A stretch of DNA of 43,393 nt, taken from positions 1-43,393 of the forward strand of contig QHSX01000047.1 in NCBI GenBank assembly GCA_003221695.1, read 5' to 3'. The position numbers and the translations under genes are program-made. Source of the stretch: Candidatus Rokuibacteriota bacterium. GTDB taxonomy: Bacteria > Methylomirabilota > Methylomirabilia > Rokubacteriales > CSP1-6. Shown in pieces: positions 6,487 through 37,755 of this stretch. Position 1 is the stretch's first letter, and each line of letters begins with the position of its first letter. The notes below the pieces were generated by a model. It had not been told where the DNA came from. It was given only the letters and a program-made list of their open reading frames with translations, and did no database searches.

Positions 6487-6980
6487 CGCACGAGCCGCTC
6501 GGCGCGGCCTGGCTCGTCTGGCTCGAGACCACGGCGCTGGCGCAAGCCATGCGCCAGTGGCTCTGGCTGTACCCGGTCGTGGAGATCGTCCACATCGTCG
6601 GCATCGTCCTTCTCGTGGGCGCCGCCGCGATGTTCGACCTCCGGCTCCTGGGCGTCTCCCGTCGCCTCCCGGTGGCGGAGATGGCGCGCCATCTGCTGCC
6701 GTGGGCGCGACTAGGTCTCGGCGTGATGGTGCCGACCGGGCTCCTGATGTTCTCGGCGCACGCCACGGAGTTCGCCGCGAACCCCGCCTTTCGGCTCAAG
6801 CTGGCGCTCGTCGCGGCGGCCTGTCTCAACGCCGCTGTCTTCCACCGCTGGCCGTTCCGCTCCGTGAGCGCGTGGAATGTCGACGCCGAGTCGCCACCGG
6901 CGGCCAAGCTCGCGGCCGGGTTGTCGCTGACGCTCTGGTTCGGTGTGATCGCGTGCGGCCGGCTGCTCGCCTATCTGTGA
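6483..6980 (+). CDS. Integral membrane protein (DUF6644/DUF2214-like)
   Basis: A 165-residue protein with about four membrane segments: around residues 28-52 (VEIVHIVGIVLLVGAAAMF), 72-92, 105-122 and 145-163. The HxxG pattern in VEIVHIVGIVLL resembles DUF6644/DUF2214 proteins, in which histidines in membrane helices suggest haem or copper handling; that function is not proven. The TTG start overlaps the stop of the DUF6152 gene (TTGA), so translation is probably coupled. Together they look like a small exported-plus-membrane pair. Confidence 0.72.
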   Translation: MTHEPLGAAWLVWLETTALAQAMRQWLWLYPVVEIVHIVGIVLLVGAAAMFDLRLLGVSRRLPVAEMARHLLPWARLGLGVMVPTGLLMFSAHATEFAANPAFRLKLALVAAACLNAAVFHRWPFRSVSAWNVDAESPPAAKLAAGLSLTLWFGVIACGRLLAYL

Positions 6981-33323: not shown

Positions 33324-33354
33324 GGGAGGTGGCTCCCTGCTGGAGTCACCTCCC
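33324..33354. terminator. Bidirectional hairpin between convergent genes
   Basis: A 13-bp stem (33324-33336 with 33342-33354, one G-U in RNA) and loop CTGCT follow the lipoprotein stop. The right arm contains the stop codon of the convergent histidine kinase (33346-33348). It can end transcription from either side, although no T-tract is present. Confidence 0.6.
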
Positions 33355-35829
33355 CGACAGCGCGCGATGGATGACTCGCCGGACCTCCTCGAGCGTGAAC
33401 GGCTTGTACAGGTAGGGAGCGCCGGCGCGCTCCAGAAATGCGCTGATCTCCGAGCTCAGCGCATCGCCGGTAAGGAAGACGAGTCGCCGAAGAAGCTGCG
33501 GGTGATCCCGAGCCAGAGCCTCATAGAGACCCGGCCCGTCGAGCTCCGGCATCTTGAGGTCGATCAGGACGAGGTCGTACGGTTGGGCGCGCAGTCTCTC
33601 TAGGGCGACGTGGCCGTTGGGCGCGACGTCCACGCGATGGTCGTCGAGCCGGAGAAGATCCGCCAGCATATCGGCGACGTAGTGCTCATCGTCCACCACG
33701 AGGATCGCCTTTCCCTGGATCGCAGGCAGCGACTCGAGCTCGCGCACCTCCGGGCCGGACGACGGCACGGTCAGCGGCAGCTCGACGCGAAAGATCGCGC
33801 CCTCGCCAGGCCGGCTCTCGACCTCAATCGTCCCTCCGTGGGCGACGATGATCGCCCGGCACAGCCCGAGCCCCAAGCCGGTCCCGTGCCCGGGCGGCTT
33901 CGTCGTGAAGAAGGGCTCGAAGATTCGCCCCTGGATCTCAGGGGCGATCCCGATGCCCGTGTCAGCGACCTCGAGCCGTATGGATTGCTCTTCTCGACTG
34001 AGCCGCGTCGTCAGGGTGAGCCGCGGGCCCGGCCGCCCGCGCATGGCATGATGAGCGTTGGTGATGAGATTCACGACCACCTGGTGAAGCTGGTGAGGAT
34101 CGGCCCAGAGGACCGGGGGATCGGCCGCCAGATCGAGTCTCACCTCGATGTTGTCCACGCTCAGGGGGTACGCGAGCAGCTCCGCCGCCTCCTGGACGAC
34201 CTGGTTCAGCCGCACCTCTTGCCGCTCGGGCGGGTGGTGGCGGGCGATCGACAGGAAGCTCCGCACGATCCGCACACAGCGCTCGGCCGCCGTCGCGATC
34301 TTCTTCGTGCGCTCGACGAGCGGCCCGCTCCCGGCGGCTCGGCGCAGCAGCTCGATCTGGCCCCTCACGACCGCAAGCGGATTATTGAGCTCGTGGGCGA
34401 CGCCGGCCAGCAGCGAGCTCATCGCGGCCAACTTCTCGGTGTGTCGCAGCGTCTCTTCCGTTTGCCGACGTTCCGTGATGTCGCGCACGACGCTCGAGAC
34501 GAAGGTGCCCTCCGTCGTCTCGAGAGGACCGAGGCTGATCTCGACCGGAAACTCGGTCCCATCCTTGCGCAGCCCATACAGTTCCATCCCGACACCCATC
34601 GGCCGCACCCGCGGGGCTCTGAAGTACCCGTGTCGATGCTCGCGGTGCTTGGGCCGGACGCGCTCCGGAATCAGCATCTCCACCGGTCGGCCAAGCAACT
34701 CCTCCCGCGAGTAGCCGAAGAGCTTCGCCGCTTGCGCATTGACGAGGACGATGTCCCCCGCCTCGTTCACGATGACCATGGCGTCGGGAGCGAATTCCAG
34801 CAGCTCACGGAATCTCGTCTCGGCGGTTCGCAGGTCCCGGGTTCGTTCCTCGACCCGCGTCTCCAAGGTGTCGTGGGCCGCTCGGAGTCGCCCCTCCGCG
34901 TTCCGTCGCTCGGCGACAAGCGCGGCCATCGTCAGGATCGTCACGGTCAGGACGCTCACGAAGGCCTGCAACAGCAACAGGGATTCATTGGCCGTCTCGC
35001 CCACAAACGGGCCGACCCCATGGACCGTGTCCCATACGGCGATCGCGGAGGTGAGGACGGCCGCGGTCGCGGCCTCGCGGGGACCGAATCGAAACGCCGC
35101 CCAGACGAGCCACGGAATCGGCACGAAGACCAGCGGGTAGTTGGCGCCCTGGTCGAGCGACCCGAGCCGGCCGATGACCACCAGCGACACGAACAACAGC
35201 ACCGCTTCGATGTGCTTGCGGAATTCCCAACGCGGCTGCGACCGGTCGCTCCACGTCAGGAGCAACGGCGTCACCAGGAGTATTCCGGTCGTGTCACCGA
35301 GCCACCACGTGAGCCAGATCGTTCCGTAGACGAACGGTGGGGCGATGCCTGCCAGGGCGATGCCGGTCGCGCTGACGCTGGCCGCCACGCAGCATGCCAG
35401 GAGCGCCGCGGCCGTGAACCTGAACACGTCCTGCGCCCGATCGAACGGGCTGCGCGCCCCGACCCATCGCTGAAGCAGGTACGCCGCCACCACGGCTTCG
35501 AGGGTGTTCCCGAGGCCGATCGCGGAGGAGACGACGACGATCGTGCGTGCACTCGCGGCCTGGTTGGCGAGGAAGGCCACCACGTTCGCGAAAAACGCCC
35601 CGAGCAAGATGCCCGGCCAGACGCGATATCCCAGAAGGAGGACCGCCGCCAGCGCGATCCCTGACGGCGGCCACACGGGCGACGCGTTCGTTTTCTCGAG
35701 GGCCAGGCGCAAGCTGAGGCCGGCGACGCCAAAGTAGAGGATTGCGATGAGGAGGGCCGCGATGGCCCAATGCGACCGAAGGTGTGAGCGGGACGTCTCC
35801 CGCGGTCGGGACACCCTACGACACGTCAC
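33346..35829 (-). CDS. MASE1-PAS hybrid sensor histidine kinase with C-terminal receiver
   Basis: An 827-residue membrane kinase. Residues about 18-305 are a MASE1 sensor with around eight membrane helices ([15 protein letters not shown] near 53-67). A short coiled-coil (310-335) leads into a PAS domain (335-455, with [16 protein letters not shown]). HisKA carries the phosphorylated His479 in HELNNPL. The ATPase domain shows [16 protein letters not shown] and GTGLGLGL. The C-terminal receiver has DDE and the phosphorylated Asp in LIDLKMPE. The kinase can therefore pass phosphate within one chain; no separate response regulator is adjacent. Transcription appears to come from a sigma-54 promoter. 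The GTG start has no ribosome site of its own and an 8-codon leader ORF ends 3 bases before it. Confidence 0.9.
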
Positions 35830-35832
35830 GAA

Positions 35833-35859
35833 CTAGTTACAGCCCAGGTCCGTTGACAT
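35833..35859 (-). CDS. Short leader ORF (8 codons) before the kinase
   Basis: ATG at 35859 with GGAGGAG upstream encodes MSTDLGCN and ends at TAG (35835-35833). The stop is in the same frame as the kinase GTG, with one codon between them. It is the best ribosome site in the leader, so the kinase could be translated by re-initiation. Alternatively, the TAG is a point mutation in the original start region of the kinase. Confidence 0.35.
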   Translation of the reverse strand: MSTDLGCN

Positions 35860-35894: not shown

Positions 35895-35909
35895 GCAACC
35901 AGCGTGCCA
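35895..35909 (-). promoter_or_regulatory. Sigma-54 (-24/-12) promoter for the hybrid kinase
   Basis: On the minus strand the bases read TGGCACG-CTGG-TTGC, a complete match to the core TGGCACG-N4-TTGC; GG and GC are separated by 10 bases as required. The predicted start is near 35884, about 55 bases before the kinase GTG. Activation must come from an enhancer-binding protein; two NtrC-like sites lie upstream. Confidence 0.8.
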
Positions 35910-35996
35910 GCGGGCAGGTTCTGGCGTCCGTCAGGAAAGCGCCTATAGTTTGCGGGCTCTGTGGGGCGGCGGCCGGCTCCTCCTCGCCCTGAGACC

Positions 35997-36032
35997 TGCA
36001 CCACGGTGGTGCAGGTGCACCAAGATGGTGCA
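35997..36032. promoter_or_regulatory. Tandem NtrC-type enhancer sites
   Basis: Two 17-bp palindromes TGCACCA-N3-TGGTGCA occur at 35997-36013 and 36016-36032 (spacers CGG and AGA), centres 19 bp apart. They match the known enteric NtrC consensus. The centres are about 121 and 140 bp upstream of the predicted sigma-54 start, the usual enhancer distance. Confidence 0.75.

Positions 36033-36081: not shown

Positions 36082-37755
<1,674 letters not shown>

Follow-up and report, generated by a model that had tools for sequence, protein, structure and literature searches.

Tandem enhancer sites of NtrC consensus type before a MASE1 hybrid kinase gene of a Rokubacteria genome probably belong to a peptide-linked σ54 activator rather than to NtrC

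The DNA analysed here (the window, contig C50, 43,393 nt) is part of a Candidatus Rokuibacteriota MAG of 4.6 Mb in 109 contigs. On the minus strand, the groEL stop codon is followed by palindrome 1, two bases, palindrome 2, a −24/−12 box and the GTG start of a kinase gene (Table 1). A domain search assigned the architecture MASE1–PAS–HisKA–HATPase_c–REC to the product, which makes it a hybrid histidine kinase, as originally predicted. The TGGCACG-N4-TTGC box is unique in the window as a match with zero mismatches; it agrees perfectly with the σ54 pattern TGGCAC-N5-TTGC with GG and GC at −24 and −12, and the exact GG-to-GC distance claimed in the original prediction holds. The two TGCACCA-N3-TGGTGCA palindromes, which that prediction had placed about 121 and 140 bp upstream, are likewise exact, with centres near −121 and −140 given a transcription start about 12 bp beyond the GC of the −12 box. 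Any further matches to the 15-bp palindrome core in the window have two mismatches (1.9 expected by chance). Both 17-mers equal the Escherichia coli NtrC consensus TGCACCAnnnTGGTGCA (PMC8743547), in agreement with the predicted likeness to a tandem enhancer of the enteric type. The rpoN gene, named in the prediction as a point to check, is present in the genome (E 3e-60), together with a GAFTGA-bearing activator that goes with an upstream site. The palindromes are best explained as the upstream enhancer, and TGGCACG-N4-TTGC as the core promoter, of a σ54 unit comprising the MASE1 kinase gene.

Table 1. Location of the elements and genes discussed in the text (window, contig C50; other C numbers, contigs of the same genome)
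Feature	Location	Strand	Remarks
σ54 −24/−12 box TGGCACGCTGGTTGC	window 35895..35909	minus	TGGCACG-CTGG-TTGC, read 35909–35895; counterpart in the G002 ortholog TGGCACGCTCGTTGC
Enhancer palindrome 1 TGCACCATCTTGGTGCA	window 36016..36032	minus	kinase-distal; 50 nt beyond the groEL stop; unchanged at the orthologous position of G002
Enhancer palindrome 2 TGCACCACCGTGGTGCA	window 35997..36013	minus	exact; centre-to-centre 19 bp from palindrome 1
Middle element AAACTATAGGCGCTTTCC	window 35934..35951	minus	between enhancer and promoter; kept in G002; found by eye
groEL	window 36082..37701	minus	upstream gene; identity read by eye from the C-terminal sequence; stop at 36082, just before the enhancer
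MASE1 hybrid kinase gene	window 33346..35829	minus	827 aa; GTG start (35829) also kept in G002
Tandem pair	C2:70500		σ54-like box TGGCACAGCCGTTGC; DUF7948 protein, then SBBP beta-propeller frame
Tandem pair	C10:19960		box TGGCGAGCGATTTGC; 43-aa peptide, SBP_bac_5, Cache-HAMP-PAS kinase
Tandem pair	C50:35998 (window)		box TGGCACGCTGGTTGC; MASE1 hybrid kinase
Tandem pair	C67:16061		box TGGCACCGCCATTGC; REC-HisKA-HATPase-REC protein
Tandem pair	C101:36563		box TGGCACGGAGCATGC; REC-PilZ protein and 102-aa protein
P0002 activator gene	C10:20021-21376		REC-AAA+(GAFTGA)-HTH_8 architecture; directly upstream of the C10 pair
43-aa secreted-type peptide	L122 about 6664-6793	minus	ends with APVIESGTSGSTQFFQAIGTADGG and a variable tail
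YcaO and TfuA genes (thioamidation type)	L122 8396-11007	minus	directly upstream of P0002
Canonical NtrC ortholog (probable)	C52:37146; L233 4135-5565		GAFTDA, not GAFTGA; NtrB-like kinase upstream

A third element lies between enhancer and promoter; it has an IHF-like look in several of the promoters and is imperfect in the window, where AAACTATAGGCGCTTTCC is a weak candidate for a bending site, IHF-like or other. Just ahead of the kinase start, and in frame with it, an 8-codon ATG frame with a strong Shine–Dalgarno sequence (GGAGGAG) and a TAG end is found at 35859–35833 of the minus strand; it is not kept in G002.

A second species of the genus (G002) retains the arrangement: the enhancer, a middle block TAGGCGCTTT, the −24/−12 box and the kinase start all align. 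One of its palindromes is identical and the other is altered in the core only, and the box stands at nearly equal spacing. The gene upstream of the enhancer block in G002, identified by reading, is unrelated to groEL. The expected conservation of the promoter is therefore borne out at this orthologous locus; it does not extend to the MASE1 kinase ortholog of G033, which has neither a σ54 box nor a palindrome site. Since close orthologs of the kinase are also present in few genomes only, its wiring to this promoter is recent and restricted to one genus. All genomes compared are draft assemblies, with gene starts chosen by a simple script.

Across the 4.6 Mb genome, the pattern GCACCN5GGTGC-N4-GCACCN5GGTGC has five perfect places, and the reversed-pattern control has none. 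Nine exact matches to GCACCAN3TGGTGC and one single-mismatch site make up five tandem pairs, all with a centre spacing of 19 bp. A σ54-like box starts 96–105 bp from the pair centre in each case (5/5). As a rough estimate from a background measured at 6e-5 per position, five boxes at five pairs would arise by chance with a probability of about 2e-14, so the pairs constitute a small regulon and not a chance match. Their targets, here as in G001, G002 and G006, are mostly signalling proteins. In G001 the pair lies ahead of REC-containing proteins (named by similarity to the C67 target), in G002 ahead of the MASE1 kinase and of a MASE4 hybrid kinase that is accompanied by a REC-HK-REC gene, and in G006 ahead of a PAS-GAF hybrid kinase, again with a REC-HK-REC gene. 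A protein of about 102 aa (MTAFTPEQRTILRAITRIISVHLGELVNLIQRTN...), encoded at L124 8518–8826 (plus strand) and L146 5604–5909 (minus strand), has no Pfam family and is a regulon member in two species.

The pair on C10 differs from the others in its position, between the gene of the σ54 activator P0002 and an operon for the peptide, the SBP_5 protein and a histidine kinase. P0002 scores best with the AtoC, NtrC and PrsR models and stays below the cut-offs of NtrC, AtoC, PrsR, ZraR and NtrX; for instance, it reaches 451.9 bits with the NtrC equivalog TIGR01818 (cut-off 558.6) and 443.7 bits with the PEP-CTERM PrsR model TIGR02915 (cut-off 502.6). Its orthologs (at least 69% identity) are followed by the peptide, SBP_5 and kinase genes in many genera, and the order activator, site, σ54 box, peptide, SBP_5, kinase is repeated across genera. 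About 38 related genomes contain the activator–peptide locus. In G001, four pairs occur along with P0002 and the peptide; G003, of the same genus, has no P0002 ortholog, no peptide and no motif. The motif and the kinase promoter occur in G002 too, and neither P0002 nor the peptide was found in its 75%-complete assembly. The association between motif and peptide locus by presence and absence (7/8 against 31/49) is not significant (p 0.17), because other genera use diverged sites; related genomes are counted as separate in these statistics. A search of the literature brought up no earlier account of such a system.

The 43-aa peptide is conserved across Rokubacteriales and belongs to no Pfam family. 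It is encoded in 42 of 195 genomes, nearly all of the same family, and is under purifying selection, with a pN/pS of about 0.2–0.4 in most comparisons. It may, speculatively, be a ligand or pheromone. The 5′ leader of its mRNA contains a hairpin (L122 6740–6775, contig C10); 22 other genomes also have it in the promoter of the peptide gene. The consensus, GGAGCCCTC-ATGGG-GAGGGCTCC, has nine pairs with 96% of cells paired, and six of the pairs show changes on both sides; slid controls stay far below this. A search of Rfam near the peptide operon, including the hairpin, gave no family at threshold, only sub-threshold chance matches; the hairpin is a candidate for a new regulatory RNA element. 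The YcaO and TfuA genes have scores below the McrA-thioamidation cut-offs; as judged by eye, G012 and G017 also have them close to this peptide. They were not found in most other loci and are therefore accessory. A thioamidated RiPP cluster as the core of the system was considered and rejected, as the adjacency of YcaO/TfuA is not conserved with the precursor. Thioamidation of the peptide by the adjacent YcaO–TfuA in the present genome is a matter of speculation.

Site and recognition helix vary together. Among 22 orthologous loci parsed, the exact GCACCN5GGTGC site precedes the peptide in 8/8 loci whose activator has an R-[MLI]-[LV] recognition helix, and the remaining 14 have neither the site nor the helix; this parse and the related promoter surveys used strict sequence patterns, by which some genomes were missed. 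The σ54 box upstream of the peptide is conserved; the tandem palindromes vary by genus. They read GCACC..GGTGC in genera g1, g14 and g22, TGCACTG..CAGTGCA in g13 and CGCCCA..TGGGCG in g8; g4 is mixed, and g9 has half-sites of the TGCACAG type. A g8-specific tandem pattern matched the peptide locus in eight of nine g8 genomes; in the ninth, G054, its sole match lay at another place. One further perfect site away from the locus has no clear σ54 box. From these matches, no wider g8 regulon is claimed. The co-variation strongly points to the P0002-type activator as the reader of the site, with counts that are not independent, since the genera with the R-type helix may form one clade.

According to the original prediction, the promoter places the kinase under nitrogen control; canonical NtrC would bind the palindromes and activate the gene under nitrogen limitation. 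The exact consensus and the presence of rpoN agree with this, and the proposed search for ntrC did yield a probable ortholog on C52, which scores 544.5 bits where the cut-off is 558.6, beside an NtrB-like kinase gene. However, the same sites do not precede the genes expected to carry them: near either glnA-family gene (C15:123712, C11:125596) or amtB (C15:125302), TGCACCN5GGTGCA has no match with up to two mismatches. The GAFTDA loop of the C52 protein also departs from the GAFTGA that marks NtrC action on σ54, and NtrC proteins without a GAFTGA loop reportedly act on σ70 promoters (PMC10274813). Nor does the motif co-occur with canonical NtrC in relatives; an NtrC 91% identical is encoded in G003, where the motif is absent, and no NtrC ortholog was detected in G001 with its four pairs. 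The targets, moreover, are signalling and peptide genes. Nitrogen control of the kinase is thus not supported, and regulation by NtrC is quite improbable. Given the glnA and amtB regions, the GAFTDA loop and the distribution in G003 and G001, the exact enteric consensus is most simply taken as a convergence, or as an old Fis-type half-site, that would be read by another activator. Two overlapping tandem response-regulator genes were observed beside amtB and glnA (L232 7179–10054, contig C15).

That other activator could be one of the approximately 20 σ54 activators (EBPs) of the genome other than P0002, for instance those on C102 or C37, several of which have Fis-type helices with Arg at a comparable place. 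No tandem pair lies beside any of their genes, though, and the co-variation described above concerns the P0002 type. It is hardly to be expected that the sites belong to one of them. The tandem repeats might also be unrelated to the kinase and serve groEL as a hairpin terminator, or be a repeat element downstream of that gene; their closeness to the groEL stop codon suits this, as do the two RNA hairpins that they can form and the folding of a 101-nt stretch containing them, which is better than that of shuffles (z −2.4). Against it, a pattern search found no T-run and no terminator-like match, nor any σ70-like pattern there, and tandem pairs precede σ54 boxes at four other unrelated loci. The arms and the spacing are constant while the core bases vary, and G002 has the block behind a different gene, yet keeps it with the kinase and its promoter. 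On these observations, a terminator or repeat element was rejected; it is extremely unlikely.

P0002, not NtrC, is most likely the activator of the MASE1 kinase unit, of its own operon and of the other tandem-pair units, a reading for which linkage and co-variation argue well. The mechanism proposed would start with phosphorylation of P0002 by the Cache kinase, which might act together with the binding protein and with the peptide or a ligand derived from it. The activator would then bind the tandem palindromes and loop to RNA polymerase–σ54 about 100 bp away. By turning on its own peptide/receptor/kinase operon, it would create a positive feedback; it would also activate at least four other units, those of the MASE1 hybrid kinase, the REC-HK-REC protein, the REC-PilZ protein and the DUF7948/beta-propeller proteins. 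The full picture would be a self-amplifying peptide circuit of Rokubacteria, in which the 43-aa peptide would act via the oligopeptide-binding protein and the Cache kinase on a dedicated NtrC-like activator, whose tandem operator co-evolves with its helix, and to which the MASE1 kinase and other signalling proteins would have been recruited in this genus. As a whole, this is possible but rather doubtful.

When a promoter matches the textbook NtrC site perfectly, nitrogen control is the usual conclusion. In the present case, tests across the genome and between species indicate a different owner of the site, which is a warning for motif-based annotation. The analysis defines a small σ54 regulon in an uncultured phylum, arranged around a highly conserved secreted-type peptide. 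The activator orthologs with their matched, diverged operators are a natural series that can be used to study the evolution of EBP specificity.

Several known systems resemble the arrangement described here. The enteric NtrC/σ54 enhancers of glnA, glnK and glnH share with it the 17-bp palindrome, tandem sites about 120–140 bp upstream and the −24/−12 box; the site spacing of 19 bp, the non-nitrogen signalling targets and the different activator indicated set it apart. Activators of the AtoSC, PrsR (PEP-CTERM) and ZraR class have the same domain architecture as P0002, a partner histidine kinase and a small regulon, whereas P0002 scores below every listed equivalog cut-off, and its gene has those of a 43-aa peptide and of a binding protein of the Opp/Dpp type linked to it. 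Gram-positive Opp pheromone systems carry out peptide signalling with oligopeptide-binding proteins. The likeness to them lies in a small conserved secreted-type peptide encoded next to SBP_bac_5 and regulators, with apparent self-activation; unlike them, the present system occurs in a phylum of Gram-negative type, has a σ54 activator as output and has a peptide that is a candidate signal. With YcaO–TfuA thioamidated RiPP clusters it shares, in its own genome, the YcaO and TfuA genes directly upstream of P0002, but most of the other loci contain no detected copy, and the scores remain under the McrA-thioamidation cut-offs.
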